Positions 37,159 through 60,761 of a DNA stretch of 64,000 nucleotides are shown piece by piece. Source of the stretch: Pseudobacter ginsenosidimutans (GTDB taxonomy: Bacteria; Bacteroidota; Bacteroidia; Chitinophagales; Chitinophagaceae). Made by a program: the position numbers and the translations under genes. Below the pieces are notes generated by a model, which did no database searches, was not told the origin of the DNA, and saw only the letters and a list, made by a program, of their open reading frames with translations. The stretch's first letter is position 1, and each line of letters opens with the position of its first letter. The stretch lies in the NCBI RefSeq assembly GCF_007970185.1, contig NZ_CP042431.1, positions 5,394,001 to 5,458,000 of the forward strand. Direction: 5' to 3'.

Positions 37159-37294
37159 ATATGCCAGGTAAGTCGGGCCATGGAAACGTAAGCGAAGAAG
37201 CTCATCAAAGATCCTTCGCTCATCTTTCCAACCCATCTCTGAATCATCATTCTCCCGCGCCGGTTCGTTTCCCAGCCCACCTTACCTGGCATAT
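37159..37294 (+). repeat. Structured repeat element, copy A
   Basis: ATATGCCAGGTAAG (37159-37172) pairs perfectly with CTTACCTGGCATAT (37281-37294). The helix continues inward with GGGC/GCCC and GGAAAC/GTTTCC. Inside lie two boxes shared with copies B and C: TAAGCGAA (37189-37196) and ATTCTCCCGCGCCGGTT (from about 37249). A small inner hairpin AGCGAAG/CTTCGCT (37191-37197, 37214-37220) is seen in this copy. It sits in the 292-bp gap between the hydrolase and the MFS importer of the alginate operon; the remaining bases of the gap (37040-37158) show nothing else. Confidence 0.75.
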
Positions 37295-37331
37295 CACGGC
37301 CGCAACTCCCAAATACAAGCTCATCAAAAAA

Positions 37332-38669
37332 ATGAACGATTTGAAACCAATAGAACAAATAAAAAACAATCGCTTCCAACTTAAAGGACTGCGTTGGTGG
37401 ATCATTTCGCTGATCGGGCTGGCTACTATCATCAATTATATAGACCGTGGCGCCATCAATTTCATGTGGCCCTATATCTATAAAGACTTCGGCATTGCCG
37501 ACGAAGACAGTAAGAACACACTGGCGCTGATCACCACCTTCTTCATGATTGCTTACGCCATCGGGCAAACAGTAACAGGAAAGATGATGGACGCTATCGG
37601 AACGCGATTAGGCATGGCTGTTAGTATCATCGGATGGAGCATTTCCATCGGGCTGCATGCGTTGGCCAAAAGCATTCTCAGCTTCAATATTTTCCGGTTC
37701 CTGCTTGGCATCAGCGAAGCCGGCAACTGGCCCGGCGCCACCAAGAGCAATGCCGAATGGTTCCCTCCAAAGGAGCGGGCCATTGCACAGGGCATTTTCG
37801 GTGCAGGCGCCAGTATTGGCGGCGTGATCGCAGCACCCGTGATCGCTGCGCTCTTCCTGGCCTTTGGCTGGAAGATGACATTCCTTGTGATTGGCGTGCT
37901 GGGCTTTCTCTGGCTGATCCCCTGGTTGTGGATCAACAAGAACACGCCCGATAAGCATCCCTGGATCACTGAAGAAGAAAAAGCGCATATACAGGGCGGT
38001 CAGATGGAAGCATCGAAGCCAAAGGCAACAGCTGTAGTGTATTCCTGGAAAGAATTATTGCAATTCAGGAATACCTGGGGCATTCTCACCAGCAGGTTCT
38101 TCATCGATCCTGTATGGTGGATGTTCGTTACCTGGCTGCCTACTTTCCTGAAGGAGCAATACCAGTTTGATATGAAACAGATCGGGGCTTTTGCCTGGGT
38201 GCCTTATTTTTTTGCGGCAGTGGGCGGATTGACCGGCGGTTTCTATTCATCGGCGCGCATCAAACGTGGCGTGGATGCGGCGAAAGCGCGGAAGAGCGCC
38301 ATTACCATCGGCAGTGTGATCATGCTGATCTCGCTCACGGTGATTGCGTATTATCTCGATGAACTGAAGAACCAGCCATCGATGGCTATTGCCTGTATCA
38401 GTGCAACCTTATTCGGATTTCAGTTCCTGATCAATAACCTGCAGACATTGCCCGGAGATTATTTCCATGGGAAGAATGTGGGTGTGGTTGCGGGCATGGG
38501 CGGCACCACTGCTGTTGCAGGAACGCTGATCACAACCTGGATCGTTCCCGTGATCACCAAAGTAAGTTATACATCATTCTTCATCATGGGCGCACTGATG
38601 GTGCCGCTGGCATGGTGTTGCATCATGTTCATTTCATCCAAAAAACAATTTAAACAAGAGAATATATGA
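37332..38669 (+). CDS. MFS transporter of the anion:cation symporter family (uronate importer)
   Basis: A 445-residue inner-membrane protein. The ATG at 37332 is chosen; the longer frame upstream runs through the structured repeat and has no hydrophobic start. After a short cytoplasmic N-terminus, about 12 membrane helices are visible. The signature NYIDRGAINFMWPYIYKDFG and the following GKMMDAIGTRLGM match hexuronate/sugar-acid importers (ExuT/GudP group). It likely imports unsaturated uronate or DEH from the periplasm into the cytoplasm. It overlaps the SDR gene by 4 bp (ATGA). Copy A of the structured repeat separates it from the upstream part of the operon. Confidence 0.9.
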   Translation: MNDLKPIEQIKNNRFQLKGLRWWIISLIGLATIINYIDRGAINFMWPYIYKDFGIADEDSKNTLALITTFFMIAYAIGQTVTGKMMDAIGTRLGMAVSIIGWSISIGLHALAKSILSFNIFRFLLGISEAGNWPGATKSNAEWFPPKERAIAQGIFGAGASIGGVIAAPVIAALFLAFGWKMTFLVIGVLGFLWLIPWLWINKNTPDKHPWITEEEKAHIQGGQMEASKPKATAVVYSWKELLQFRNTWGILTSRFFIDPVWWMFVTWLPTFLKEQYQFDMKQIGAFAWVPYFFAAVGGLTGGFYSSARIKRGVDAAKARKSAITIGSVIMLISLTVIAYYLDELKNQPSMAIACISATLFGFQFLINNLQTLPGDYFHGKNVGVVAGMGGTTAVAGTLITTWIVPVITKVSYTSFFIMGALMVPLAWCCIMFISSKKQFKQENI

Positions 38670-39418
38670 GACTAAAGGGAAAAGTTGCCATTGTATCCGG
38701 TGGTGCAAGGGATATTGGCCAGGCCGTATCCGTAAAGCTGGCAAAGGAAGGAGCCAGGGTGGTAGTGAATTATTTCAGCAGTGAGCAACAGGCGCAGGAA
38801 ACCCTGGCGGCTATCAGTGCGATCGGTGGAGAAGCGATTGCTGTGAAAGGCGATATGAGCAAAGGAGAGGATGTTGCCAATGTAGTGAGTGCTGCACAAA
38901 AAGCATTCGGTAACGAGATCCATATCCTGGTGAATGTGGCTGGTGGAATGGTGGCGCGTAAACTGATTGCAGACATGGATGAAAATTTCTGGGACCATGT
39001 GATGGGCCTCAATGTAAAATCCGCTTTCCTGCTCACCAGGCAGGTAGTACCCCATATGCCGGCAGGCAGTGCTGTAGTGAACTTCTCATCCCAGGCAGGC
39101 CGGGATGGCGGCGGATTTGGAGCTTCTGCCTATGCAACTGCCAAAGGTGCTGTGGCTACTTTTACCAAAGCAATGGCCAAAGAGCTCGGCCCGAAAGGTA
39201 TCCGCGTGAATGCAGTGGACCCTGGTATGATCGCTACATTCTTCCACGACAGTTTCACCAAACCCGAAGTGCGCCAGAACGTGGCCAATTCCACACCGCT
39301 GCGCAGGGAAGGTAAGGCCGGTGAAGTGGCCGACCTGGTGGCTTATCTCGCCAGCGATGAAGCCAGCTTTATCACAGGTGCCAATATCGATATCAACGGG
39401 GGAACTTATTTCTCCTAG
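38666..39418 (+). CDS. SDR-family oxidoreductase, probable DEH reductase
   Basis: A 250-residue classical short-chain dehydrogenase. It has the nucleotide-binding GGARDIGQA (residues ~12-20), NVAGG, the catalytic Ser in VNFSSQAG and the YATAK motif (Tyr~155, Lys~159), then the DPGMI segment and the C-terminal GANIDINGGTYFS. Enzymes of this type in alginate loci reduce DEH to 2-keto-3-deoxy-D-gluconate with NADPH or NADH. The assignment to DEH rests on the operon, as SDR substrates are not readable from sequence. Its ATG overlaps the MFS stop (ATGA), so import and reduction are coupled. It is the last gene before a terminator. Confidence 0.85.
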   Translation: MRLKGKVAIVSGGARDIGQAVSVKLAKEGARVVVNYFSSEQQAQETLAAISAIGGEAIAVKGDMSKGEDVANVVSAAQKAFGNEIHILVNVAGGMVARKLIADMDENFWDHVMGLNVKSAFLLTRQVVPHMPAGSAVVNFSSQAGRDGGGFGASAYATAKGAVATFTKAMAKELGPKGIRVNAVDPGMIATFFHDSFTKPEVRQNVANSTPLRREGKAGEVADLVAYLASDEASFITGANIDINGGTYFS

Positions 39419-39472
39419 AACGCGTTAATCCGTATTCTTCATATTGTTCATTATTTTCCTGGTTATGTAGCA

Positions 39473-39500
39473 GGGCTGCACAAAAGTGCAGCCCTTTTCT
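39473..39500 (+). terminator. Intrinsic terminator of the alginate operon
   Basis: GGGCTGCAC (39473-39481) pairs with GTGCAGCCC (39486-39494) around AAAA, followed by TTTTCTT. It lies 54 bp after the SDR stop. Confidence 0.92.
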
Positions 39501-39585
39501 TATCTTGGAACAGGTAGTAACCGGCCTACAAAGGGATTCGACCGCATGATGTAATTTTGATTGTATAACCAGGAAAAGAAAGTAT

Positions 39586-40338
39586 ATGGACAGTACCAAA
39601 AGATTCAGCAACCGGGTGGAAGATTATGTGAAATACAGACCGCATTATCCAGGGGAAATCGTTTCTTTCTTAGCCGATCAATATGATCTAAGTGCTGATA
39701 AAATAATCGCAGATATTGGAGCTGGTACCGGGATCTCTTCGAAACCCTTTCTGGAAGAAGGTTACAAAGTGATAGCAGTAGAGCCTAACAAGGAAATGCT
39801 CGATAAAGCCATTGAGCTGCTGGGGGATTACCCGGAATTCTCACCGGTATCAGGTACAGCCGAAAAGACCACTCTCAAAGCGCATAGCGTGGATGCCATC
39901 ATCGCAGGTCAGGCCTTCCACTGGTTCAATCGCGAAAAATGTAAAACAGAATTCAGGCGCATCCTTAAAAATGCAGGACTGCTTGCCGTGATCTGGAACG
40001 AAAGGCTGATAGAATCTCCCTTCGAAGTGGAATACGATGCCCTCATTGTGAAACATGCCAGGGATTATGTAAAAGTGGACCACCGCAATATAAATATGGA
40101 AGACATGGTGCTTTTCTTCGATCCTGCGCCCGTTGAGTTGAACGTTTTCTCCAATAAACAGGTTTTCGATTTTGAAGGACTGAAGGGCAGGCTGCTTTCG
40201 TCTTCCTATATGCCCGTAAAAGGTGAGGACGGCTATGAAACCATGGTAGAAGACCTGGAACTGCTTTTCGACCGCTTCAAGGAAAATGAGCTGATCGTGA
40301 TCAATTACGCCACCAAAGTCTATTCCGGCATCCTGTAG
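39586..40338 (+). CDS. Class I SAM-dependent methyltransferase
   Basis: A 250-residue soluble protein. The N-terminal NRVEDYVKYRPHYP is typical of the UbiE/TAM-like group. Motif I is IADIGAGTGISSKPFLE (~40-57), motif II VIAVEPNKEML, and the post-motif AIIAGQAFHWFN (~105-116) is the FHWF form common in this subfamily. No ligand other than S-adenosylmethionine can be assigned. It is preceded by a -7-like TAATTTTG (39561-39568) and stands alone after the alginate operon terminator. The downstream 210-bp gap contains the ECF-type promoter of the sigma gene. Confidence 0.85.
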   Translation: MDSTKRFSNRVEDYVKYRPHYPGEIVSFLADQYDLSADKIIADIGAGTGISSKPFLEEGYKVIAVEPNKEMLDKAIELLGDYPEFSPVSGTAEKTTLKAHSVDAIIAGQAFHWFNREKCKTEFRRILKNAGLLAVIWNERLIESPFEVEYDALIVKHARDYVKVDHRNINMEDMVLFFDPAPVELNVFSNKQVFDFEGLKGRLLSSSYMPVKGEDGYETMVEDLELLFDRFKENELIVINYATKVYSGIL

Positions 40339-40378
40339 ACGGCTTCCCTTAAAAATTAAGAAAAAAATATCGTTACCG

Positions 40379-40407
40379 GCTTCACCCTCCCGCGTGAGGC
40401 CGGTGTT
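40379..40407 (+). promoter_or_regulatory. ECF-type bipartite promoter motif before the sigma gene
   Basis: GCTTCACCCT (40379-40388), 14 nt, then GTGTT (40403-40407). The identical boxes and spacing recur at 41117 and 15857, which suggests that the sigma factor recognises them and drives its own gene. A second, standard -7 element TATATTTG is at 40455-40462. Part of this motif can also fold as a hairpin (ACCGGC/GCCGGT) but no T-run follows. Confidence 0.55.
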
Positions 40408-40548
40408 GTGTTATTGCGGGACCTGAAAAAGGGGAGGATATGCTGATCATTTTTTATATTTGAAAGCTCATGCCTTATGGCTGCCATCCATTTTACCTTG
40501 CCTCAACCACAACAACAAACCAAATGCTTATTTGTGCGCGCCCCGCTT

Positions 40549-41109
40549 ATGGAAGGTAAGATTGGAAATATCATTGATCTCTCGCACCTGGAATCCCTTT
40601 TCCGGGAATACTATCACCGTCTCTGCAACGCTTCCTATTATATCACCGGCAATGAAGACGCTGCCAAGGATATTGTACAGGATTTCTTTTTTCATTGCTG
40701 GAATAAAAAAGAAGAACTGGCCATTACCGGCGACTTCAAGTATTACGCATTACGGGCCGTGAAGAATGCGAGCATCAATTATATCCGGGACAACAAAAAG
40801 TTCACTTCTGTGAAAGACCCTGAAAACAATCTTAAGGTAGCCGAACAACCAGTGCCTTCTTTCGACGATATGGGGGAGGAAGAAAAGAACAGGGAGCTAT
40901 GGAATGCAATCGAGAGGCTGCCTGCACAAAGAAAGGCCATCTTTCTTTCGTCCAACAAGGACGGTCTTACCTATGCGCAGACGGCGGAGAGAATGGGCGT
41001 ATCTGTAAACACTGTCAAAACCCAGATCAGACTGGCTTATCAGTTCCTGCGTGAAGAATGCGCATGGCTGCTCCATTTCCTGATCTTATGGATCGGACTA
41101 AAAAAATAA
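40549..41109 (+). CDS. ECF RNA polymerase sigma factor (FecI-like, Bacteroidota type)
   Basis: A 186-residue sigma factor when started at the ATG at 40549; an in-frame ATG at 40477 would add 24 residues of low-complexity Gln-rich sequence not seen in the family. Region 2 is LESLFREYYHRLCNASYYITGNEDAAKDIVQDFFFHCW, and region 4 is the helix-turn-helix LTYAQTAERMGVSVNTVKTQIRLAYQFLRE (~140-170). The C-terminus has a hydrophobic tail (WLLHFLILWIGL) usual for this group. The FecR anti-sigma gene follows 57 bp downstream and an STN-bearing SusC after it, so this is a surface-signalling sigma factor activated when the SusC binds its ligand. Confidence 0.93.
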   Translation: MEGKIGNIIDLSHLESLFREYYHRLCNASYYITGNEDAAKDIVQDFFFHCWNKKEELAITGDFKYYALRAVKNASINYIRDNKKFTSVKDPENNLKVAEQPVPSFDDMGEEEKNRELWNAIERLPAQRKAIFLSSNKDGLTYAQTAERMGVSVNTVKTQIRLAYQFLREECAWLLHFLILWIGLKK

Positions 41110-41116
41110 ACAAACT

Positions 41117-41145
41117 GCTTCACCCTTCAATGAGGGTATAGTGTT
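41117..41145 (+). promoter_or_regulatory. ECF-type bipartite promoter motif before the FecR gene
   Basis: GCTTCACCCT (41117-41126), 14 nt, then GTGTT (41141-41145), 22 nt before the FecR start codon. It has the same boxes and spacing as at 40379 and 15857. It starts 8 bp after the sigma gene stop, so the FecR gene would have its own start in addition to read-through. Confidence 0.6.
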
Positions 41146-41166
41146 ATACAATTCAAGCAGCACAAG

Positions 41167-42345
41167 ATGCAACAAAACGAAAACGATAATATCCGTTGGG
41201 AGAAACTGGAAGAACAGTTGGATCAGCCTCAGATCAACCCGGAACAGGAAGGTCTGAGCAAAGAAGAACGGAATGTGCTTCATTTCTTCAAGCGGCTGCG
41301 CAACAGGCTGCATCCCGTGGATGAACAGAAAAGCTTTCCGCTGGAAGATGGCTGGAATAGTCTTTCTGCCAGAATTGCCATGGAAGAAAATACTGGTGCC
41401 CGTAAAGGACGCTTTGTAAAATGGAGACAATTCAGTCTGGTGGCCGCAGCGGTGCTGCTGCTGGCCGTGGCTGGCATTTTCTGGATGCTGAATAAACCTG
41501 CCGGCAACAAACAACAGGAACTGGCGGGGAAAACACAATCAACTCAAAAAGCAGATCTGCCCCCTTCAAAACAGGTGGAACTGATCCTGGCAGATGGCAG
41601 TAAGATTGAACTGGGACAAAAACAATCCATCACCGAAAAGAATGGAGTAGGCATTGTGGCCTCAGATGAAAAACTGCAATACGAGACTGATGTAAAAAGC
41701 GACAAATTACTTTACAATACCCTGATGGTGCCAAGAGGGAAGAAGTCGCAGATCAGCCTGCCGGACGGCACCACCGTGTGGGTGAATGCTGCCTCGAAGA
41801 TCACCTATCCGGTTGCATTCATCGGGGCTACTCGGGAAGTTACCCTGGAAGGCGAAGCTTATTTTGATGTGAAACAGAATACGGAGAAACCTTTCATCGT
41901 GCATACAGTCAATATCGATGTAGAAGTATTGGGTACTGCTTTCAACCTGAATGCCTATGCGAAAACGATTCGCACCACCCTGGAAAAAGGAAAAGTGCGG
42001 GTGAAAAATAAAACGGCTTCCATCGAGCTGATGCCTGGTGAGCAGGCGATGTACGACCTGCAGTCAGCACAAATGAAGAAAGCTCCCGTATACACCAGGT
42101 TGTTTACCGGCTGGAAAGATGGAGAGCTCTACCTGGAAGACCTTACGCTCCGGGAGATCACTGAACAACTGAGCCGTGATTTCGACTATGAATTTGAATT
42201 TGCGGAAGCATCCCTGAAAGAGCTCCGCTTTACCGTAGACATGGCCGCCGCTGATAATCTCCAGGCCGTGCTCGACCATATCAGCAGTACCACGGAAGGT
42301 CTCCGTTTCTCAGTAAATGGCCGCCTGGTAAGTATTTCACGATAA
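41167..42345 (+). CDS. FecR-family anti-sigma/sensor protein
   Basis: A 392-residue protein. The cytoplasmic N-terminus (1-~85) is the part that binds the sigma factor. One membrane helix is at ~90-108 (SLVAAAVLLLAVAGIFWML). The periplasmic FecR domain runs from ~180 to 280: SLPDGTTVWVNAASKITYP, GEAYFDVKQNTEKPFIV, VEVLGTAFNLNAY. A DUF4974-like secretin/STN-type domain closes it (YLEDLTLREITEQLSRDFDYEF, ~320-392). It holds the ECF sigma factor inactive until the STN domain of the SusC encoded 90 bp downstream signals. It belongs to the sigma-FecR-SusC-SusD order typical of Bacteroidota. Confidence 0.94.
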   Translation: MQQNENDNIRWEKLEEQLDQPQINPEQEGLSKEERNVLHFFKRLRNRLHPVDEQKSFPLEDGWNSLSARIAMEENTGARKGRFVKWRQFSLVAAAVLLLAVAGIFWMLNKPAGNKQQELAGKTQSTQKADLPPSKQVELILADGSKIELGQKQSITEKNGVGIVASDEKLQYETDVKSDKLLYNTLMVPRGKKSQISLPDGTTVWVNAASKITYPVAFIGATREVTLEGEAYFDVKQNTEKPFIVHTVNIDVEVLGTAFNLNAYAKTIRTTLEKGKVRVKNKTASIELMPGEQAMYDLQSAQMKKAPVYTRLFTGWKDGELYLEDLTLREITEQLSRDFDYEFEFAEASLKELRFTVDMAAADNLQAVLDHISSTTEGLRFSVNGRLVSISR

Positions 42346-42435
42346 TGTTTGCTACAGTTCTACTGATTATGATATAAACCTGCCATCCTTTCCGGAAACA
42401 TACCGGAAACCGATCAATATTAAACTGCTTTTCAA

Positions 42436-45400
42436 ATGAGAAATGTTGTTACAACACCTGTATCATTGCGGGTAAGAGGGCATTTTGTGTGCGCCATCCT
42501 TTCCCTGCTCCTGTTGGGAGCTTCCATCCCGCTCTTTGCACAAACGAAGAGACCGCTGGATAAAAAGATCAGTTTCAAAGTTACCAATGTTAGTCTTGCT
42601 GAAGCCCTGAAGAAATTCCGGGCCGCATCCGGTGTGCACATGACCTTCAACCAGGAGGATGTGAACAGTCAGCCTGCTGTAAGTATTGATGTAGCTGACA
42701 GATCCGGACGTGAAGTACTGGAGAGATTATTGTCTAATACAGCTATCAGGTTTGCCGAAGCAACAGATGGCAACGTTTTGCTGATCCTTAAAACCAGCAA
42801 AAAAGACAATACGCGGGCGGGTAAGTTCTTTGACGTGAATGGCCAGATAGTGGATAACCAGGGGCAGGCGCTTTCCAATGCCACCATCATGGTATTGCCG
42901 GAAAAGAGAGGACTTACTGCCGATAAGAATGGAATGTTCAATCTTACCGCCAAAGAAAATGATATCCTTCGTTTCAGTTACCTGGGCATGAAGAGTTACG
43001 AAGTGAAGATCAGGAAAGATGAGTTCCTGAAAATTGCGCTGGATACTGCTCCGTCGGTAATGACTGAATATGTTGTAACAGGATATCAGACCATCGAGAA
43101 ACGCATGCTCACAGGTGCAGTCACTACGCTGACGCCTGATAAATTCCTCAGGCCAGGTGCGGCAAGCATTGATCAGATGCTGCAGGGAAAAGTTCCCGGC
43201 ATGGTAGTCACTTTCAACAGTGGAAGCCCTTCCGCTGCTCCAAAGATCCGCATCCGCGGCACCAGCACCATTTTAGGAAATGCATCTCCGCTCTGGGTGG
43301 TAGACAATATCATCCGCACCGATCCTGTGAACCTGAGCCCGCTCCAGGTGAACACGGTACTGGCTGCCGCACAGGAATCGAATTTCAGCATGGTGGGCAA
43401 TGCCATTTCCGGCATCAACCCATATGATATTGAAAGCATCACATTTTTGAAAGATGCTGCTGCCACCTCCATTTACGGTGTACAGGCTGCCAACGGTGTG
43501 ATTGTTGTTAAAACAAAAAGAGGAAAACCCGGACCGGTAGCCATCAATTATAATCTGAGTCTTGGATTCACCGGCAGACCGCGGTATACGCAAATGAACC
43601 TGATGAATTCCAAGGAGAGGGTAGACGTTTCAAGGGAAATGCTGCAGAACGGGATCTATTATCCCAATGGACTTCGTTCTGTATCTTACGAACAACTCGT
43701 TGATCAGCTCTCTGCACGCAAGATCACCCAGGAAGAGTTTTCTGAAAAAGTAGGACAGCTGGAAACGATGAATACAGACTGGTTTGATCTGTTGACGCAA
43801 AATGCTTTCAACCAGACGCACTCCATCGGATTCAGTGGTGGAGCCGGCAAAACGAATTATTACGCTTCGGTGAGCTTCTTCGATAACAAAGGAGCATTCA
43901 AAGGAGATAATCTGCAGAGTTATTCCGGCAGGTTGAATCTTGAATCCAACCTAAGCAGCAAACTGAACGTGAACTTATTGATCGATGCCTCCTACAGGAA
44001 AGCGAAAGGTTACTATAATGTAAACCCTTTCGATTATGCATTGCAGACCTCCCGTACTATCCATCCTGATTCTTTCTATATTGCCCAGGTCTCTACCAAT
44101 ATGAGAACGCCCTGGGTAAATCCTGATCCGATCCGATACAATATCCGTAATGAAATTGATCAAACAGGTTCTACCACTACTACACAAAGTTTCAATATCA
44201 ATACCGGCATCAACTACAGGTTAATGAGAGGACTGAGTTTCCAGGGAACCTATAATCTTGAAGCTTCCGGGAATTCCAATTTCAATTTCATCACAGCCCG
44301 CAGTTATGCAGCTGCCGTGATCAGGGGATTCGACTATAATGCGTATAAGAAAGGAGATTTCAAGTTTGAAAAATCGCCGCTTCCTTATGGTGGTATTGGA
44401 TATCCTGCATCAACTCAAAATCTCGCGCTTAATATCCGTAACCAGTTTAACTATAACCTGAGTCTTTTTGAAGGAAGGGATAACCTGTCTGCCATGGTAT
44501 CGCAGGAAATGCGTTCTGTAAAACAAGACGGAACGATGTCGCTGGAACCTGGCTATTTTCCTGAACGGGGAAACACTTACTATTCCGGATACTACAATAC
44601 CCGCTCTGCCATTGGATCACAGGCATACCACCAGGTAGTGAACACCAACACCGTTACCAATACATTATCCTGGATGGCCGGTTTCAATTACCAATTCAAC
44701 AGGAAGTACACCATCAGTTCCAGTATTCGCACAGATGGTTCAAACCGTTTTGGCCAGTATTCCAACCAGCGTTTCCTTCCCAACTGGCATGTTGGCGCCA
44801 TGTGGAATATCACGGCAGAACCATTCATGGAAAGAGTGAACTGGGTTGAACAGGCTGCGTTGCGCGCTTCCTATGGCTCACAGGGAAATGTGGTATCTCA
44901 GGTAGGTCCGCAGTTGATTGCAAGTTACCCGTCTGCCCCCGTGGATGATGTATCCAATGAATTTGTATTGGACCTGAAGAGCCTGCCTTATCCTGACCTT
45001 CGTTGGGAAAAATCGAAATCCTTCAACCTGGGAATGGATCTGATGCTATTCAAGGGGAGATTACAGATCAATGCAAATGCCTACTATAACAGGACCACCG
45101 ATCTGATCGTTACCGTAGCGCTTCCGCTTGAATATGGTGTAAAGAATATGTACATGAACAATGGCAGCATGAACAACAAGGGGTGGGATCTGGGTGTAAC
45201 GGTAGTGCCTATACGATCAAAATCAGGTGTAACCTGGAACCAGACTTTCAATTATTCGATGAACTATAATAAAGTGGTAAGGTCCGGCATCGTCAACAAT
45301 TATGCCGAGTACCTGAGTGGTTCTGCCGTGGTGCCCGGAATGCCATTTGGTTCCTTCTATTCATTCGGATTTGCAGGCCTCAGCCCTGTGAATGGAATGC

Positions 45401-51953: not shown

Positions 51954-51994
51954 TGAATAATTGAAACCAAATATTTAAAGTAAAATCTATCATT

Positions 51995-52666: not shown

Positions 52667-52725
52667 GCGCAATGTCTCAGTATTGGAATGACACTTGTTA
52701 ATGAGCAATCGCATAGAGGAAACCA

Positions 52726-52754: not shown

Positions 52755-52797
52755 CTCCAATGGTGTCTGCTTTATTTTACCATGCAAATCATCAATT

Positions 52798-53118: not shown

Positions 53119-53574
53119 TCAAGACCTGAGAATGGAAAAATAGACGAGCCAGGCAACCAGGAAGAGTTGCATCGGGATCCTGAACCAGAGATAGGACGGG
53201 CCTTTGCCATCATATGTTCCCTTTTCATAGTCCACATGATGAAGGGCTGCATAAATATTGGCAGGCAACATCAGCACCAGCATGATGATCAGAAGGATGG
53301 CCGCGATATACCGGGTGACCGGAAAAAGCAGCGCTATCCCCAATAATATTTCTGCAACGCCACTGATGAATACAGCTGCTCCTTTTGCAGGCAGGGCAGG
53401 AGGCAGCATCATCGTCATCCCTTTACGGAATTTGAAATGGCCGATGGCCGTGAAGCAGAACATCAGGGCCATACTGAGGTTGCCGTTGAAACTGAGATGC
53501 GGATCGCCTTTGAGCACATAAGCGATCAATATTCCCAAAAGAAATGAAAAGAGGAGCAGGAATAATGGTTTCAT
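53119..53574 (-). CDS. DoxX-like small membrane protein
   Basis: A 151-residue inner-membrane protein with four helices (LFLLLFSFLLGILIAYVL, LSMALMFCFTAIGHFKF, GAAVFISGVAEILLGIALLFPV, YIAAILLIIMLVLMLPANIYAAL) and a C-terminal helix (MQLFLVAWLVYFSIL). The FTAIGHF and GVAEILLGIALLFP motifs are of the DoxX/MauE family, small redox- or quinone-linked membrane proteins. It ends exactly where the convergent 106-residue gene ends. The exact role is unknown. Confidence 0.8.
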   Translation of the reverse strand: MKPLFLLLFSFLLGILIAYVLKGDPHLSFNGNLSMALMFCFTAIGHFKFRKGMTMMLPPALPAKGAAVFISGVAEILLGIALLFPVTRYIAAILLIIMLVLMLPANIYAALHHVDYEKGTYDGKGPSYLWFRIPMQLFLVAWLVYFSILRS

Positions 53575-53699
53575 GGGACAAAGATAAATGCTGGCAATGC
53601 TTTTCTCTGTCGTACTATGGCGAGGAGCATGCTTTCACCGGTAAATGCCGGCATTTTTTCGGTGAGCGACCGGGCATACTCCTGAGCAAAAGCGTTTCC

Positions 53700-55910
53700 C
53701 TAAAACCTGTAACTGATCATCGCTCTCAGATTGAAAGGTGTTCCGGGAGTAAAGTGAATTTCCGTTACAGGCCCGGGTTCGTTCTTCAATCTGCTGGTTG
53801 TGGCAAATTGTGTTTCGTTCCACTCCTTATTGAAAATATTCTCTGTAATAATGCCGAAGCCAAAATGTCCCCATTGGAAATTCAGGCTTGCATCTGTGAT
53901 CCAGTATCCTTTGGCAATAATGCTATTGTCTTCATTGGCTGGTCTGTCGTCCAGGTACCTTGTTTTCAGGCTCGCAGAAAATCCTGACGGATGTTTGAAA
54001 CTGATGCCTCCGGCTGTGGTGATACGTGGCGCAAGCGGTATGCGGTCTTCCCCCTTCGGTTCTTCTGTAGCGCGCGCATAGGTATACGTTAGATCTCCGT
54101 TCAGGAAAAGGTATTTTCCCAACTGGTATCTTGCGCCAAAGTCGAAGCCCTGTCTGCGTGTTTTGCCACTGGGCTCTACTACACCTTCATCACCCACATA
54201 CACGAACTCCTGCTCCAGGTAAAGGTACCAGGCGGCTGCATTGAGCATGAGGCGGGGCAATGGTTTCCAAAGGATGCCCAGATCTGCGCCATAAGCAGCG
54301 GGTAATATTTTGTGCCCTTCCTGCGCCACTACTACGCGGGTATCATTGCTGTGGAATCCTTTGCCGAGTTTCAGGAAATATTGTAAACGATGGTCTTGAT
54401 TGAAGATGAAGTTCAGTTTAGGACTGAAGGCTGCCTTGCTTTGGGACTGTTGTTTGTAAGTGCCGGACAGGTGATCGGTATAATCGAATTTGAGATGATC
54501 GATTCGAATACCGGGATTGATCACCCATTTGCCTGCCCTGATCTCAGCATTGGCATATCCGAAGAGGTTGGTCTCGTTGATATCACCGAGCATGACCGGC
54601 TCGATGGTGGTCTTACGGTTCACAGTATGCGATAATTCGATATTATCAATGGCATCATTTCTCAATCCAACTGCCGCCTGAAAATCGATCACTGTCTTCT
54701 TCCAGTAAAAATTCCTGTTGAGCTCGGATTGAAAGCCGATGATATTCCTTTTTTCTTTCTGCCTGATCTGATCGCCATTGACGGGATCATTGAGGAAGAA
54801 AGTGAAATTGCTGTAGAGCTCGAAATCATAATGACTGAAATATGCGGTGTTCTTTACAAAAGTGTTTTCATCCACCTGTTTGAGGAATTGCAGGTTGATA
54901 TTGGTTCTGGAAGTATTACCGCCTTCTGTATCGTCGATGGCGCCGAAACGTCCGATGCTGCCGTCTTTCACGGCTCGTTCAGGGATCTGTCCACTGGCAT
55001 TCCATTCACTGTTGAAATGGGAGAAAGCGATGCTGAGCTTATCGTTGCCCGGCAGCCAGGCGCTGTATTTGCCCATCAGATTGAGGCGGTTGAAATTTTG
55101 TGGTGAATCGAAGAAACCATCCGTTTTGATATAGTCGGCAGCAAACCAGGCAGCATTCTTTTCATTGTTCACAATATTGAACATACCCAGTGTACGGAAG
55201 CTGTTGAATTTGCCGGCTTCCAGTTGTACAAGGCTATGATCGAGCCTGTCCTTTGTTTCGAAAGCCACATAACCCGCGGTGGCGAGATTGCCTTTGTTGG
55301 CATAGTAGGGGCCTTTATCGAAGTCTATTTTTCCAATTGTTTCAGGAATAAGGAAATGGAGATCTGCATAGCCCTGTCCATGTGCATGGCTCACCATGTT
55401 CACGGGCATACCGTCCACACTGATATTGATATCAGTACCATGATCGATATCGAAGCCACGCAGGAAGATCTGTTCTGCTTTGCCGCCGCCTGCATGCTGA
55501 CCTATAAAAAGCCCCGGTACTTTGCGCAGCAGCTCCTGTGAAGAGTTCACCGGATTGGTTTGCAAATCTGCATCGGAAATGATATTGAGGTGACGGACCG
55601 CGGCCGTAATGGTTACGTTCTCCAGTTGGAAAGCTGATGGCTGCAGGATGATCCGCAATGTGTCCTGGTCCGCAAGGATAGTGAGGGGGGAACAGGAAAC
55701 ATGCGTGATGCGGAGTGAATCTCCTTTGTGTGCACCGCGAAGCAGGAAGAACCCATTTTCATTGCTGTGTTCATGTGCCCCTGTTTGAAGATTGTAGACT
55801 GTTGCATTGGTCAGCGGTTTTTTATCATGGCTCAATACAAAGCCGCGAACTCCCTGCGCAAAAGAGGAAGCAGAAAATAGAATAAGCGAAAAGAATAATA
55901 TCTGTTTCAT
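53700..55910 (-). CDS. TonB-dependent outer-membrane receptor with carboxypeptidase-like extension
   Basis: A 736-residue receptor with signal peptide MKQILFFSLILFSASSFAQ. Residues ~20-95 are a CarboxypepD_reg-like domain (GVRGFVLSHDKKPLTNATVYNLQTG). The plug follows with NPVNSSQELLRKVPGLFIGQHAGGGKAEQIFLRGFDIDHG and DGMPVNMVSHAHGQGY. The His-rich HAHGQGY segment is typical of a subset of receptors linked to metal-complex uptake. The barrel ends FTPGTPFNLRAMISYRF with a terminal Phe. It imports a siderophore, metal complex or cofactor, not further identified. A -7 element TATATTTG lies at 55965-55958 upstream of its start. It is a single gene, unlike the SusC genes here, without SusD. Confidence 0.9.
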   Translation of the reverse strand: MKQILFFSLILFSASSFAQGVRGFVLSHDKKPLTNATVYNLQTGAHEHSNENGFFLLRGAHKGDSLRITHVSCSPLTILADQDTLRIILQPSAFQLENVTITAAVRHLNIISDADLQTNPVNSSQELLRKVPGLFIGQHAGGGKAEQIFLRGFDIDHGTDINISVDGMPVNMVSHAHGQGYADLHFLIPETIGKIDFDKGPYYANKGNLATAGYVAFETKDRLDHSLVQLEAGKFNSFRTLGMFNIVNNEKNAAWFAADYIKTDGFFDSPQNFNRLNLMGKYSAWLPGNDKLSIAFSHFNSEWNASGQIPERAVKDGSIGRFGAIDDTEGGNTSRTNINLQFLKQVDENTFVKNTAYFSHYDFELYSNFTFFLNDPVNGDQIRQKEKRNIIGFQSELNRNFYWKKTVIDFQAAVGLRNDAIDNIELSHTVNRKTTIEPVMLGDINETNLFGYANAEIRAGKWVINPGIRIDHLKFDYTDHLSGTYKQQSQSKAAFSPKLNFIFNQDHRLQYFLKLGKGFHSNDTRVVVAQEGHKILPAAYGADLGILWKPLPRLMLNAAAWYLYLEQEFVYVGDEGVVEPSGKTRRQGFDFGARYQLGKYLFLNGDLTYTYARATEEPKGEDRIPLAPRITTAGGISFKHPSGFSASLKTRYLDDRPANEDNSIIAKGYWITDASLNFQWGHFGFGIITENIFNKEWNETQFATTSRLKNEPGPVTEIHFTPGTPFNLRAMISYRF

Positions 55911-56047
55911 GCAATTGGTTTTGGACCGGCAATCAGAATTTGCGGTTTTTTGCGGGCCAAATATAACGATGTGATCTGCTTCTTGCAGGAATGATTATTT
56001 AAACGGCGCAATTGATGGCAGAAACACTTAAATTGCCGCCAGTTCAA

Positions 56048-57307
56048 ATGATCATAAAAAAATCTGCTATGACCTACCGGTTTCCCATTGTGCTGGCCTT
56101 TTGTGCCATAACAGGCATTGGCGCAGCCTCCCTGCGAAATGTTGAAAGCAATCCCTTTCCAGTGATCGATGAAAGCGCCGCCAAACAAATAGTTACAGGT
56201 GCGGACCAGCTCAATGCCTACCTGCCATACCTCAAAGGAAAGCGCATAGGCATGCTCGTGAACCAGACCAGTATCATCGGCAAAAAACCGCTGGTGGATA
56301 GTTTACACGCACTGGGCGTAAAGATCCAGACCATTTTCGGTCCCGAGCACGGTTTCAGGGGCAATGCCAGTAATGGTGCACATGTAGGTGATGAAGTGGA
56401 CCCTGCAACAGGCATCCGGGTGGTATCACTCTACGGAAAGCAACGCAAACCATCCAAAGAACAAATGGCAAAGATCGATCTCATGATCTTCGACCTGCAG
56501 GATGTGGGCTGCCGCTTCTACACTACCATCAATTCCCTGCGAGATATCATGGAAGCCTGTGCAGATAATAACAAGGAACTGCTGATCCTCGACCGTCCCA
56601 ATCCCAATGGTTATGTTGACGGCGCTGTGCTGAAGATGGAACATAAATCAGGTATCGGTCAGTTCCCTATTCCATTTACGCATGGAATGACCATTGGTGA
56701 GTTTGCAAAAATGATCAATGGTGAAGGTTGGTTGCCCGGGAAAAAGCAATGTAAGATCAGGATCATCCCTGTGAAGAACTATGCACACAATATGGATTAC
56801 ACATTGCCTGTGTTCCCTTCGCCCAATCTTAACTCACAACAATCCGTGCTGTTGTATCCAAGCATCTGCATGTTTGAAGGAACCATCGTGAGCCAGGGCC
56901 GCGGAACTTATGTTCCTTTCACTGTATTGGGCGCGCCTGCTCTCAAAGGCAAATATGATTTCAGTTTCACTCCCGTGAGCATTCCCGGAAAATCTGAAAC
57001 ACCGCTGCATCAGGATCAGGCCTGTTATGGACTTGACCTGGGCAATTTCAAGACAGACAGTTTCAGAAAAGCCGGTAAGATCAATATCCGCTGGATGATG
57101 GAGATGTATAAAGCCTATCCGGAAAAAGAGAAATTCTTCGACAGGAGCTTCAGCAGTCAGATTGGAAATATCGATTTTCTGAGCGGTTACTCTGAATTCA
57201 AACAACAGATCATTTCCGGCGCCAGTGAAGCAGAGATCCGTAAGAGCTGGGAGCCTGCTTTGAGCAATTACAAGAAGATGAGATTGAAATACCTGTTGTA
57301 TCCGTAG
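56048..57307 (+). CDS. DUF1343-family exo-beta-N-acetylmuramidase (NamZ-like)
   Basis: A 419-residue exported protein; the ATG at 56048 (or 56069) opens a signal peptide (MTYRFPIVLAFCAITGIGAAS) and an earlier in-frame ATG at 56012 is less likely. The family motifs are clear: RIGMLVNQTSIIGK, TIFGPEHGFRGNASNGAHVGDEVDPATG, VSLYGKQRKPSKEQM, DLMIFDLQDVGCRFYTTINSL, LILDRPNPNGYVDG, and SPNLNSQQSVLLYPSICMFEGTIVSQGRG. NamZ removes MurNAc from the non-reducing ends of peptidoglycan fragments. Acidic residues in FGPEHGFRG and FDLQDVG are conserved. It acts in the periplasm in cell-wall recycling. It is divergent from the TonB receptor and convergent with the adenylation gene. Confidence 0.9.
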   Translation: MIIKKSAMTYRFPIVLAFCAITGIGAASLRNVESNPFPVIDESAAKQIVTGADQLNAYLPYLKGKRIGMLVNQTSIIGKKPLVDSLHALGVKIQTIFGPEHGFRGNASNGAHVGDEVDPATGIRVVSLYGKQRKPSKEQMAKIDLMIFDLQDVGCRFYTTINSLRDIMEACADNNKELLILDRPNPNGYVDGAVLKMEHKSGIGQFPIPFTHGMTIGEFAKMINGEGWLPGKKQCKIRIIPVKNYAHNMDYTLPVFPSPNLNSQQSVLLYPSICMFEGTIVSQGRGTYVPFTVLGAPALKGKYDFSFTPVSIPGKSETPLHQDQACYGLDLGNFKTDSFRKAGKINIRWMMEMYKAYPEKEKFFDRSFSSQIGNIDFLSGYSEFKQQIISGASEAEIRKSWEPALSNYKKMRLKYLLYP

Positions 57308-57357
57308 CAGAATGCAGCCAATCGCCCGCCTCCCGGCGAGTGATAAATATTCTTTAA

Positions 57358-57409
57358 TCGCCTCCGCGGATCAGTCAGGTATTGCAGGCTGCTGGTTCGC
57401 CGGAGGCGA
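57358..57409. other. Inverted repeat between convergent genes
   Basis: TCGCCTCCG (57358-57366) pairs with CGGAGGCGA (57401-57409). The second arm can also fold on itself (GTTCGCC-GGA-GGCGAAC). No T-run follows on either strand. It lies between the stops of the NamZ-like gene and the adenylation gene and may serve both as a transcript end. Confidence 0.45.
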
Positions 57410-57437
57410 ACTTATTGGGAACCACTCTGAATGATTG

Positions 57438-58889
57438 TTATTGCTGCGAAGGATATTTTTTCTCCAGGTACCTGTTGTAAAATGTTTCTAACGCTGAATA
57501 ATCTGTTTTGAAATTGGCATTGAGCGGAAATTCCGGAGTGGGAAAATAATGCGTGGGCCTGAGCCAGTTGGGAATATGCTGCAAGAGGTGCATATTCTCT
57601 TCAAGTTTGAATCCCGGTGTGCTGGTGAAGAATAAGCCGATGGTCATGTATTTGCGCGAAAAGATAGCGGCTGCATCACTGATGGGGCCGATTCCCGAGA
57701 AAACGTATTCCAGGTTATTGAGGTTGATGCGATGCCCGTAGTACTTCACTTCCCGGTCTACCCGGCCTGCATAATAGTAGCGGTCCTCTTCCTGGTTGTA
57801 GATCACTTTGTCGCCAGTTTTGTAAAATTGTTCTCCATCGTATTCAAAGAATCCTGTGCCTTCAGGGAGATTGATATATCCGTTGAAGGTTTGTTCTCCG
57901 CTCACATAGAGCTCACCTTCCAGGTTACCATCTTCCAAAAGCATCGCATTGCCCAGGTAGGCTTTGCTGCCGATATTGAGCTGACCGATGCTCACCACCC
58001 GGTTCCAGGTATGGAATTCAGTCTCTACTTTGTAAGCTGAGCAATAGATGCTGAGTTCCGTGGGGCCGTAACAATTGTAAATGCCTGCGCGTGGAAAATA
58101 TTCTCTCAACAATTGCACATCTGAATCGTAAAGGGGTTCTCCGCAAAACAGGAAATGCTTTGTTCGGTTGGGAGAAATGGAAAACAGTAATTGTTGTTTT
58201 TGCAGGATGCGCAGCATGGAAGGCAGCATACAGAAGATGGTGCAATGCGCATACTGTTCATGGTTAAGCAGGTGGTCCGTATCTATATGCGATATGGCTG
58301 CTCCATTGGTCCAGGCCATCAGCATGGCCCAGATACTGAGATCGAAGGAGAACTTGAAAGTATTGGCTATCACGGCTGTTTCCTCCACTTCGAATAACTG
58401 CTGCATATTATCTGTGAACGCGGCGATATTGGCATTACTGATGGGAACTGCTTTTGCTGCGCCCGTAGTGCCGGAAGTGAAGAGGATATAACGGAGATCA
58501 ACAGTTGAAAATCCGTCCGCAATCTCGGTTTCCTGGAAACAGAGAAAACAGGAGCCGAAGGAGGGGAGATGCAGCGGTTCGTACACCTGTTCCTTTTCCC
58601 TCCAGTGAGAGAGGAAGAAGTTTTCGTTGGTGATGATCACACCGGGATTGATGATCTCGATCTTGTTTTCGATCATCGGGATGGTATCATCGATATTGAT
58701 GGGACAATAAATAAAATCATGTGTGAAGCAGAAATAGAATGCGAAGTAGTAAAGTTCCGGATGGGAAGATAAGACCACTACTTTCCTGTTGCTGCCGGAA
58801 GGGAGTTTTTTCCGGAGCGCCGCGCAGGCAGTATCGAAATCATGGTAGCTGTACCGTTTCGATCTGTTGTATAAAAATATCTGATCCAT
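57438..58889 (-). CDS. Stand-alone AMP-binding (ANL-superfamily adenylation) enzyme
   Basis: A 483-residue soluble protein starting at ATG 58889; a TTG eight codons upstream is not needed. Adenylation core motifs are present: A3 LFTSGTTGAAKAVPISN (~155), A5 YNCYGPTELSIY (~295), A7 YKTGDKV (~370), A8 GRVDREVKYYGHRINL, and an A10 equivalent PLNANFKTDYSAL in which the catalytic Lys is kept as FKTD. It activates a carboxylic or amino acid as the adenylate, as in DltA or free NRPS A domains; the substrate is not readable by eye. There is no carrier protein domain attached and none adjacent. The polysaccharide deacetylase gene lies 78 bp upstream in the same direction. Confidence 0.88.
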   Translation of the reverse strand: MDQIFLYNRSKRYSYHDFDTACAALRKKLPSGSNRKVVVLSSHPELYYFAFYFCFTHDFIYCPINIDDTIPMIENKIEIINPGVIITNENFFLSHWREKEQVYEPLHLPSFGSCFLCFQETEIADGFSTVDLRYILFTSGTTGAAKAVPISNANIAAFTDNMQQLFEVEETAVIANTFKFSFDLSIWAMLMAWTNGAAISHIDTDHLLNHEQYAHCTIFCMLPSMLRILQKQQLLFSISPNRTKHFLFCGEPLYDSDVQLLREYFPRAGIYNCYGPTELSIYCSAYKVETEFHTWNRVVSIGQLNIGSKAYLGNAMLLEDGNLEGELYVSGEQTFNGYINLPEGTGFFEYDGEQFYKTGDKVIYNQEEDRYYYAGRVDREVKYYGHRINLNNLEYVFSGIGPISDAAAIFSRKYMTIGLFFTSTPGFKLEENMHLLQHIPNWLRPTHYFPTPEFPLNANFKTDYSALETFYNRYLEKKYPSQQ

Positions 58890-58967
58890 AGACAAGGTAT
58901 TGCTGAAAAGCAAGGGGCACGGTCAGAAATGGGTCAGTGATCATAAATTTAATCAAAATAACAATAT

Positions 58968-59750
58968 TTACTGTTTTCCTCTAATCCATTCTGCTAATTC
59001 GAGAAAAGTGGTTGTGCATATTTCCTTTTCCTGTTCTTTCAGGAATTGCAGCAGCTGCCTGTGCGCTTCCAGCGATACGTTGATCGGATGCCCGCCACCT
59101 ACGCCATGGAAGAGGAATACGATAGCCTTACCGGATGCCATCGCCTTCTTCACTTCATTGATCAGTTGTTCCCCTGTATGTCCGTTCACGCCGAAACAGC
59201 CAAGGCTGTACAGGTTTTTTTCATTGATGGAAATAAGTTGTTCACCGGTAGCCCTTGCTGCAACAAAATCATGTGGATCGAGGTATAGACTATCCTGTAA
59301 CCTTTGATCGCCGCAGGGATAAGCGAAGGTCCTCTGTTGTTTGCCATCGACTGAGAAAAGCACGGCATTGGTCATGCGCATTTCATCCTGCATTCGTCGT
59401 ATACTGTAATTACGCAGATCATATTCGGGTATTACCCAATCCCTGCCGGGCTTGCCGCCTTCGCAGGGATGGAAGAGGGTATGATTGCCAAGCTCATGTC
59501 CGGTTACTGCTACCTGTTTCCACTCAGCGATACGTTTTGTAAATGCCGGCGATGAGCAGGTAAGAAAAAAGGTTGCTTTCAATCCCAGCGAATCCAGCAA
59601 TGGAATGGCCTGGTCCAGATGCGGGTCAATGGCATCATCATACGTGAGCGTCACTGCACATTTATGTTGTTTCCAGGATCCCGTGGATTGTGCAAATGAA
59701 TGAATGCAGAAAAGCAAAAAGAAAAAGGGGGAGAGCCGGCGCATGTACAT
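58968..59750 (-). CDS. Exported polysaccharide deacetylase (CE4/NodB domain)
   Basis: A 260-residue protein; the ATG at 59750 (or 59744) opens a signal peptide (MRRLSPFFFLLFCIHSFAQ), and an upstream in-frame ATG at 59798 is rejected because it would bury this signal. The NodB motifs are TLTYDDAIDPHLDQAI (motif 1, catalytic and metal Asp), GHELGNHTLFHP (motif 2, His-x3-His zinc ligands) and RTFAYPCGDQR (motif 3). The C-terminal FLFHGVGGGHP holds the last His. It removes acetyl groups from a cell-surface or environmental polysaccharide in the periplasm or outside. It is 79 bp from the divergent acetyltransferase gene. Confidence 0.9.
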   Translation of the reverse strand: MYMRRLSPFFFLLFCIHSFAQSTGSWKQHKCAVTLTYDDAIDPHLDQAIPLLDSLGLKATFFLTCSSPAFTKRIAEWKQVAVTGHELGNHTLFHPCEGGKPGRDWVIPEYDLRNYSIRRMQDEMRMTNAVLFSVDGKQQRTFAYPCGDQRLQDSLYLDPHDFVAARATGEQLISINEKNLYSLGCFGVNGHTGEQLINEVKKAMASGKAIVFLFHGVGGGHPINVSLEAHRQLLQFLKEQEKEICTTTFLELAEWIRGKQ

Positions 59751-59829
59751 GGCATTGAATTGTGTATTTGAAAGGTACTCAATTTCAGCAGCAGACAAAA
59801 GGAGCGAAGCCTTATTTTTGCCTTATCAG

Positions 59830-60390
59830 ATGAACAATTCTTACATATTTCAATCCGCCCGCCTGGGCTTCCGCAACTGGCGGGATACAGACATCCCTCC
59901 GTTTGCAGCGATGAACGCCGATCCCGTTGTGATGGAATTCTTCCCATCAACAAGAACCTTTGAAGAAACAGTTGTGCTGGTTGAAAAATTCCGGCAGCAT
60001 TTTGAACAGCACGGTTATTGTTTCTTTGCTGTGGACCGTGTTGATACCGGGCAATTCATCGGCTTCATCGGCTTGAACAATGTGAACTTCTCCGCCACTT
60101 TCACACCCTGCGTGGAGATCGGCTGGAGATTGATGCAGCCGGCCTGGGGACAGGGATTTGCCACTGAAGGCGCACAACGATGTCTTCAATTCGCATTCGA
60201 TGATTTGCACCTGGCTGCCGTCCTCTCTTTCACTGCCCTCTCCAATAAAAGGTCTGAGCGCATCATGCAGAAAGCCGGCATGCGCGCCATCGGAGAGTTT
60301 GCACATCCTGCCCTGCCGAAAGGGCATCCGCTGCAACAGCATTCGCTCTACCGTTTGACCGTCTCGGAATTTGACCGTCTCGGGATATAA
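59830..60390 (+). CDS. GNAT-family N-acetyltransferase (RimJ/RimL-like)
   Basis: A 186-residue protein starting at ATG 59830; the longer frame overlaps the deacetylase gene and has no GNAT sequence. The fold shows the N-terminal SARLGFRNWRDTDIPPFAAMNADP, strand GQFIGFIGLNNV, CVEIGWRLMQPAWGQGFATEGAQRCLQFAF containing the acetyl-CoA-binding pyrophosphate loop WGQGFATEG, and LSNKRSERIMQKAGMRAIGEF, the RimJ/RimL-like C-terminal motif. It acetylates an amine on a protein or small molecule. The stop falls within one base of copy B of the structured repeat. Confidence 0.9.
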   Translation: MNNSYIFQSARLGFRNWRDTDIPPFAAMNADPVVMEFFPSTRTFEETVVLVEKFRQHFEQHGYCFFAVDRVDTGQFIGFIGLNNVNFSATFTPCVEIGWRLMQPAWGQGFATEGAQRCLQFAFDDLHLAAVLSFTALSNKRSERIMQKAGMRAIGEFAHPALPKGHPLQQHSLYRLTVSEFDRLGI

Positions 60391-60509
60391 AAAATGTGTC
60401 TGTTGAAATGAACCGGCGCGGGAGAATTTTCTTGAGCTGTGGATTGGAAGGATGGGGCGGAGGAATGATTGCCATACTGCATCGCTTACATTTCAAAGGC
60501 CACATTTTT
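60390..60509 (-). repeat. Structured repeat element, copy B (inverted orientation)
   Basis: Outer arms AAAAATGTG (60390-60398) and CACATTTTT (60501-60509) pair, and inner arms TTGAAATG (60403-60410) and CATTTCAA (60489-60496) pair. Read on the minus strand, the boxes shared with copies A and C are present: TAAGCGAT (60488-60481) and TTCTCCCGCGCCGGTT (60426-60411). The arms differ in sequence from those of the other copies but still pair. It begins at the stop codon of the GNAT gene. Confidence 0.72.
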
Positions 60510-60634
60510 CATATCACTCGCCGGATGGAACCGAAAATGTGCAGCAGATAAATGAAATGCAATCAAGGGCTGTGTAATAGTGAAATAATGAAGAAATGAT
60601 CTGTTGCACCTGTTATCGTGATGGAGCAAAAAGT

Positions 60635-60761
60635 GATATGATAAGCCGGTCCTGGAAACATAAGCGAAAAAGCCTGGCTAAGCACCAAAGCCCAACCCAA
60701 CCAATAAAAAGCTCATAATTATTCTCCCGCGCCGGTTTGTTTCCCAACCGGCGTTCATATC
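60635..60761 (+). repeat. Structured repeat element, copy C
   Basis: GATATGA (60635-60641) pairs with TCATATC (60755-60761), GCCGG (60645-60649) with CCGGC (60748-60752), and GGAAAC (60654-60659) with GTTTCC (60739-60744). The shared boxes are TAAGCGAA (60661-60668) and ATTCTCCCGCGCCGGTT (60721-60737). It is 125 bp from copy B in opposite orientation. Its right arm contains the stop codon of the minus-strand DUF488 gene. Confidence 0.75.

Follow-up and report, generated by a model that had tools for sequence, protein, structure and literature searches.

A family of long-stem palindromes, often in inverted pairs, with conserved boxes and copy-specific stems, in Pseudobacter ginsenosidimutans and related genomes

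Background

Among the described systems of dispersed bacterial palindromes, the closest to the element treated here are the repetitive extragenic palindromes (REPs), their paired forms known as REPINs or bacterial interspersed mosaic elements (BIMEs), and the miniature inverted-repeat transposable elements (MITEs). In the passages relevant here, the REP unit is given as 20-40 bp (PMC3733652) or as 21-65 nt (PMC6006769), and the latter source, in its part on the TnpA-REP subclass 2.6 of Bacteroidetes, speaks of 'atypical secondary structures' (PMC6006769); for the enterobacterial repetitive intergenic consensus (ERIC) and other enterobacterial intergenic repeat units, sizes of 127 and 168 bp appear in the corresponding part of a further source (PMC2759123). 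Herein we analyse a repeat family first noticed in a 64,000-nt stretch of Pseudobacter ginsenosidimutans (Chitinophagaceae), NZ_CP042431.1 (hereafter the window, to which coordinates refer unless otherwise stated; its genome is labelled G000). A preliminary description of the window had claimed three structured repeats with conserved boxes and covarying arms, and our analysis revealed that they belong to a real structured family, most of whose copies stand in inverted pairs. The reading that we prefer, and hold to be just on the probable side of even, is that these pairs are orphan, non-autonomous doublets of REPIN or MITE kind, kept as DNA hairpins.

Results and discussion

Size, architecture and covariation of the family

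With up to 3 mismatches permitted, the box ATTCTCCCGCGCCGGTT has three matches in the window, all of them exact, against a mean of 0.17 and a maximum of 2 in 100 shuffled windows; the three copies (A, B and C) likewise all have the TAAGCGA box and arms that pair within the copy and are unlike between copies. When a 16-base core of the box was searched in G000 with at most 2 mismatches, 68 matches were obtained against 2 for the reversed pattern, 58 of which were judged real and 10 unrelated by eye. Two loci (L001 and L025) were omitted from the stem counts, leaving 56 copies, and two more (L016 and L049) from the alignment A1, whose 54 copies gave the covariance model R1 with a length of 167. 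At E <=0.01, R1 finds 115 copies in the single contig of 7,797,595 bases, two of them truncated or degenerate, so that the search for further copies, on which the preliminary description had staked its claim, bears the family out.

A copy measures about 167 nt and consists largely of a long stem whose sequence is specific to the copy while pairing is kept within each copy. In the direction used here, which is the reverse of that in the preliminary description and which the strands of the copies in Table 1 follow, the order is arm, GGCTG, GAAAC A, AACCGGCGCGGGAGGAT, a G/T-rich stretch of about 55 nt, CTTCGCTTA, TGTTTC, AAGGCC and arm; in 55 of the 56 copies counted, the loop stretch from TAAGCG to GGTT takes up 75-80 nt. 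Outside the inner 15 columns, the stems of the 56 copies hold 1188 Watson-Crick pairs, 64 pairs of wobble type, 74 other mismatches and 140 gaps. As a side observation, most of the variable loop columns (56-110) show A, G or T on one strand and C is largely confined to fixed columns, with columns 97, 103 and 104 as exceptions.

Pairing in A1 is found in 82.5% of cells against 65.1% in shuffles, and two-sided changes in 281 cells against 107.8; neither figure is reached by any of 500 shuffles, and pairing falls to 46-50% when the partner is shifted by one column. The compensatory arm changes, first described from three copies, are thus confirmed on 54. A divergent subfamily in a more distant species, G001, also covaries, with 125 two-sided cells against 46 shuffled; its alignment A3 comprises 26 of 28 G001 loci, the two R1-type ones being omitted, and 13 of 41 G001 matches are without a locus. 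In the inner helix of A1 the changes lead mostly from one Watson-Crick pair to another (G-C 30/A-T 21; C-G 37/T-A 16; A-T 34/G-C 18), and one pair there holds 7 U-G cells; in A3 as well, Watson-Crick exchanges predominate in the inner helices.

Counted across the entire structures, G-T and A-C cells are about equally frequent (46 vs 57 in A1, 34 vs 35 in A3), and therefore the wobbles show no overall strand bias. Because the pairing is mostly Watson-Crick and free of such a bias, the stem would probably act as DNA, in the form of a single-stranded hairpin or a cruciform. Of the earlier claim that the fold is selected either as RNA or as single-stranded DNA, the selection stands in that the structure is kept, and between the two forms the overall wobble counts favour DNA. 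The competing explanation is a structured RNA, namely a 3' untranslated region element or a small RNA in the direction of the upstream gene, whose long hairpin would affect the ends or the stability of the messenger RNA. We regard it as unlikely, given the even wobble counts and the Watson-Crick exchanges of the inner helix; nevertheless two observations count in its favour and against the DNA reading. In the G001 subfamily the base of the stem has 18 G-T (that is G-U) cells and 0 A-C cells, and on the carefully paired arms of the 56 copies the wobbles lean to the strand of the gene, 40 vs 24 (p 0.06). Because of the 18 G-U cells, the RNA explanation is given slightly more weight and the DNA reading slightly less.

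Inverted pairs and gene surroundings

The copies are far from randomly placed. In fact 76 of the 115 are members of 38 close pairs (within 1.5 kb), every one of which has the same inverted arrangement around a centre of 84-857 bp; copies placed at random give a mean of 2.7 pairs and a maximum of 9 (2000 trials). The likeness to interspersed palindromes that had been suggested holds only in part, as some two thirds of the family is paired; beyond what had been described, copies B and C make up one inverted pair, and copy A is one of 39 singles. When R1 and R2 (a second covariance model, built only from the divergent G001 subfamily) were run over about 5 kb around each single copy, no clear partner was found, the matches being weak ones such as that in L172. 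An inner box, GTGCAGCAG or a near form of it, lies close inside the copy (at least 7 of 9 bases within 40 nt) in 65 of 115 cases, as compared with 3.6% in shuffles and 10 of 115 on the outer side. The loops within a pair are slightly more alike than those between loci (0.65 vs 0.59 in G000, 0.66 vs 0.61 in the sister species G004), a value reached by none of 500 permutations in either genome.

As to the centres themselves, a module of about 40 bp around CTGACGCACTCTTTCCCC is common to about a dozen pairs whose centres are otherwise unrelated, for example in G000 C1 near 798870, 1690750 and 5196690, and some centres seem by inspection to hold a whole gene.

The copies prefer sites beyond stop codons or terminator-like hairpins. 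In 76 of 114 cases, rough gene calls show the outer-side neighbour directed toward the copy, and in about half of these 76 its stop codon lies within 30 bp; the calls come from a simple script, whose errors include at least the GNAT gene next to copy B, and the three-hit locus L133 was skipped in the orientation counts while L172 was counted as a two-copy locus. This prevailing orientation downstream of genes is in keeping with a structured RNA, as is the better RNA fold on the strand of the gene among the copies listed. Of the 115 outer flanks, 23 have a terminator-like hairpin pointing at the copy, as compared with 2 for the opposite strand and 2.2 in shuffles; at least 23 copies thus lie beyond a separate terminator-like hairpin, which speaks against the RNA explanation, and for this reason we did not adopt a terminator role for the copies themselves.

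By the same gene calls, 18 of the 38 two-copy loci lie between converging genes, 18 between tandem genes and 2 between diverging ones. The scarcity of diverging neighbours is one of the points in favour of another explanation, a domesticated chromosome-structuring element resembling BIMEs, in which the paired hairpins would be sites for a host protein or gyrase beyond gene ends and would be kept whatever their origin. We consider it quite improbable: such a role accounts for the upkeep of the family and not for its spread.

Conservation between orthologous copies

The retention of copies in G004 allows the constraint on each part to be compared directly. In 69 of the 83 orthologous copies, each compared with whichever copy at the matching locus is more similar, a choice that biases the values toward similarity, the arms are 92.3 and 93.5% identical between G000 and G004, the boxes 88.6 and 92.6%, and the loops 81.9%, whereas pair centres reach 86% (31 loci, with many gaps), four-fold sites 71% and coding sequence 90%. 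The stems are thus conserved above the centres and the loops, as a domesticated element of BIME type would also have it. Among stem pairs that are Watson-Crick in G000, with 72 of the 83 copies anchored, 2381 are the same in both genomes, one-sided changes number 215 and two-sided ones 35, and 119 are gapped; the gapped ones and a further 608 reference positions that are not Watson-Crick were set aside from the compensatory count. Of the two-sided changes, 27 of 35 are again Watson-Crick (p 1.4e-7 against one third), so that compensatory change holds between orthologous copies as well as across the family. Altogether the conservation and the compensatory change indicate that the stems are the constrained part and that their pairing matters, a result more in line with DNA than with RNA. 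The one-sided changes lead to G-T in 54 cases, to A-C in 49 and elsewhere in 112, again without an overall strand bias.

The same figures bear on a purely mutational explanation, according to which the stems have no function and template switching, in the manner of quasi-palindrome correction, copies one arm onto the other. Copying would yield what is seen in the inner helices, where changes on both sides mostly give a Watson-Crick pair and wobble intermediates are scarce, and short direct repeats are seen by inspection at the outer foot of some units. However, correction alone would not slow divergence, and the stems diverge less than the centres (92-94% vs 86% identity); one-sided changes also far exceed two-sided ones. 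We therefore find this explanation very improbable.

A hypervariable loop was considered for a time, as identity between orthologues taken by profile columns was 76%, in some cases 55%, which suggested hypermutation or an exchange of loops. This was dropped because pairwise realignment places the loops at 82%, a little below the centres and above four-fold sites. A further count, in which 49 of 76 loops were closer to a non-orthologous copy, was left unused, being inflated by the maximum over many copies. The changes between orthologous loops are mainly A-G, A-T and G-T.

Distribution, age and the divergent subfamily

Matches to R1 occur in 4 of 59 genomes (G000 and relatives), all four of one genus, and a deeper search gives 108 copies in G004 and 109 in G002; the carriers make up a small group of soil bacteria. 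In two further genomes of the same genus, G003 and G005, neither the deeper R1 search nor R2 found a match. R2 was searched in 37 genomes, 4 of which have matches, and it found nothing in the 31 genomes of other genera. With strict filters, 5 of 394 genomes of the bacterial family match, the fifth being G179 of another genus with two matches. A degenerate box pattern run on 84,980 species genomes, a set from which the window's own genome is possibly absent, gave 24 stretches, none of them outside Pseudoflavitalea rhizosphaerae KACC 18655 and the metagenome-assembled genome BIN25, which are the carriers G004 and G002; no match to the repeat family was found in viral contigs.

All 50 of the G004 loci compared (83 copies) match element loci in G000, with flanks mostly 84-94% identical, and the family is therefore an old one that shows no visible movement. 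At one locus an entire pair varies between genomes: the L103 pair (912734-913367 of the G000 contig) is wholly absent from G001, G003 and G005 by match coordinates, and in G001, for which alone the base-by-base alignment is good, the same two genes are 34 bp apart. The retention at matching loci, together with the 16 of 28 G001 loci that match on both flanks, would fit a chromosome-structuring role; against this, the family is undetected in G003 and G005 of the same genus, and therefore it is not essential.

R2 has 59 matches in G001, at least one being a copy of R1 type, and the boxes of the subfamily are AAATATGCCGGGCAG and GCGCAACATATTT. Many of the G001 copies also stand in inverted pairs, and both R1-type copies there are paired with an R2-type copy. 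Of the 28 loci, 18 (14 of 22 distinct units) match element loci of G000, 16 of them (12 units) on both flanks, and all of the 18 except L070 carry the other box type. These may be old units with changed boxes, or else fresh insertions at favoured sites. A different explanation would be a new mobile or site-specific DNA system whose ends are long hairpins read by their stem form and inner boxes, the stem sequence being free; a protein particular to the clade would recognise the folded DNA, and a shift of its specificity between lineages would account for matching loci being mostly of R1 box type in three species and mostly of R2 type in G001. This we rate as unlikely.

Search for a mobilising enzyme, a parent element and known families

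The preliminary description had proposed to look for a transposase or RAYT-like gene whose ends match the repeats. A search for Y1 transposases gave 13 matches in 7 genomes, comprising an IS200-like gene, genes resembling it in relatives, and a few weak frames or relics, some below the Pfam cut-off, which we take to be RAYT-like from their motifs. None of the Y1 loci examined has copies beside it (other transposase families were not searched): all 13 are without a significant R1 or R2 match within about 1.5 kb on each side, the two R1 matches seen there being at chance level (E 0.33 and 1.5).

Several of these loci deserve mention on their own account. The IS200-like Y1 gene, single in G000 (L065 1435-1863; G000 C1:7347186-7347515; 142 amino acids), has neighbours that look like DAHP synthase and aroB, and equally long Y1 frames exist in G001 and G004, which hints that the gene may be domesticated. 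In L066 (1501-1662; G000 C1:2023873-2024034) a relic, presumably RAYT-like on account of an MPNHVHLIW motif, is fused in frame to an ORF (open reading frame) resembling an ABC transporter. The RAYT-like gene of G004 (L297, C15) lies between 63-nt inverted repeats (1192-1254 and 1902-1964) which belong to a short REP-like family with TCGCCTCYGGCGA cores, having many dispersed copies in G004 and a few in G000; this gene thus seems to own its short repeats, and the long-hairpin family is a different one. The RAYT-like frame of G003 (L298) lies between 54-nt perfect inverted repeats of similar kind (1135-1239 and 1907-1960).

An autonomous parent was sought by ORF inspection in two long stretches, the 5 kb between the copies at genome positions 6011264 and 6016498, read except for 99 bases, and the 1.7-kb centre in G002 contig C163, and both hold ordinary-looking genes. 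Rfam gave no match at the gathering threshold in the window or in 7 loci, the sole weak match around copies B and C having E 2.7; this agrees with the earlier statement that no named family with these boxes is known, and counts against a structured RNA. The attC sites were set aside as well: attC conserved boxes lie at the hairpin base, whereas the base is variable in these copies. In full-text literature searches, no title or abstract among the matches listed concerns the family.

The copies in the window

The features of the window are collected in Table 1. As A, B and C are all among the 54 training sequences of R1, their R1 scores are partly circular; R2, which was built from the other species, matches the same three copies and nothing else in the window. 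Folded as single-stranded DNA, copies A and C are strong on the two strands (z -7.1/-6.0 and -3.2/-4.4). The GNAT and DUF488 genes converge, and copies B and C overlap their ends. Copies B and C have short direct repeats at their outer feet (60357-60383 and 60757-60792), namely GACCGTCTCGG twice and ATATCCTTTTTGCGGGAG twice, and by eye also at the outer foot of several other copies.

Table 1. Repeat copies, boxes and neighbouring genes in the window
Feature	Position	Strand	Basis or remark
Copy A, single	37145..37309	-	R1 122.4 bits; R2 37.9 bits, E 1.1e-8
Copy A, box ATTCTCCCGCGCCGGTT	37249..37265	+	Pattern search
Copy A, box TAAGCGAA	37189..37196	+	Read from sequence
Copy B, left member of inverted pair	60365..60532	+	R1 130.9 bits; R2 38.9 bits, E 5.6e-9
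Copy B, box ATTCTCCCGCGCCGGTT	60411..60427	-	Pattern search
Pair centre between B and C	60533..60616	.	84 bp, shortest of 38 centres
Inner box GTGCAGCAG adjoining copy B	60539..60547	+	Sequence; enriched family-wide
Inner box GTGCAACAG adjoining copy C	60601..60609	-	Sequence; enriched family-wide
Copy C, right member of inverted pair	60617..60781	-	R1 137.4 bits; R2 33.6 bits, E 1.6e-7
Copy C, box ATTCTCCCGCGCCGGTT	60721..60737	+	Pattern search
Esterase-like gene (BD-FAE), on one side of copy A	36047-37039	+	Pfam
MFS transporter gene, on other side of copy A	likely start 37332, end 38669	+	Pfam
GNAT acetyltransferase ORF, last 26 bases overlapped by copy B	59704-60390	+	Pfam
DUF488 ORF, last 27 bases overlapped by copy C	60755-61180	-	Pfam

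A proposed model of the unit and its weighing

Under the preferred reading of orphan REPIN- or MITE-like doublets, the unit would consist of two modules of about 167 nt, inverted around a variable centre, each module being a long-stem DNA hairpin that has conserved boxes within the stem and, on the inner side, a box similar to GTGCAGCAG. Such pairs would have spread as a unit by transposition, through a transposase acting in trans which may now be lost or unrecognised. The copies would then be kept since hairpins beyond gene ends may serve the host, for example as roadblocks or supercoil sinks, roles which have been proposed for REP and BIME elements.

Besides the wobbles treated above, a number of findings weigh against this reading. 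A third of the family or so, 39 of 115 copies, is single, and the pair centres share short stretches only (25 matches among 38), the longer ones inspected holding ordinary-looking genes. None of the 13 Y1 loci comes with a significant copy of the family, no recent insertion was seen among the G004 loci compared, and no clear target-site duplication was recognised at the L103 empty site, the one site aligned base by base. In the window, the outer side of copy A faces the start of the MFS gene, and the DNA fold of copy B is weak (z -0.6/-1.9 on the two strands).

Whichever reading prevails, about a hundred sites per genome that have a fold in common and variable stems make up an unusual natural data set, which is suited to studying the spread of palindromic repeats and the reasons for their upkeep. 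With orthologous copies in sister species, selection on the stem becomes directly measurable, and species of the same genus with no copies detected can serve as controls; moreover the two box types at shared loci pose a testable question of co-evolution with a DNA-binding or DNA-cutting protein.

Comparison with known systems

Like ERIC, the family has palindromic units of similar size in intergenic places, as the preliminary description had noted for size and form. The likeness ends there: the ERIC sequence is conserved along the palindrome, whereas here the boxes are conserved and the stems vary, a distinction drawn from the description of ERIC and not from a sequence comparison. With the TnpA-REP subclass 2.6, so far as the cited part describes it, the family has in common the phylum and non-canonical structures with genomic copies; it differs in that the RAYT-like genes here have no significant family match within about 1.5 kb, the published structures themselves not having been compared.

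MITEs are resembled in the short, mostly non-coding unit with inverted ends and in the presence or absence of the whole unit (seen at one locus, L103). Unlike in MITEs, each end is a long hairpin in its own right, with a stem specific to the copy. A target-site duplication was not recognised at the one aligned site, and neither the Y1 search nor the ORF inspection found a parent transposon. From the REP/REPIN (BIME) elements the family differs in unit size (about 167 nt, of which the loop takes 75-80 nt), in stems whose sequence differs between copies, in that inspection of the A1 and A3 consensus sequences shows no conserved GTAG/GTGG or CGTC tag at the foot of the stem, and in having no Y1 (tnpA-REP) gene with copies beside it among 13 loci. 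Like them, it consists of dispersed intergenic palindromes, often in inverted pairs and mostly between converging or tandem genes: all 38 close pairs are inverted, as in a REPIN doublet, and 36 of the 38 two-copy loci have converging or tandem neighbours by rough gene calls. To sum up, the family behaves like REPIN doublets or MITEs and lacks several of the features that define REPs, and we class it as a new form of interspersed paired palindrome.

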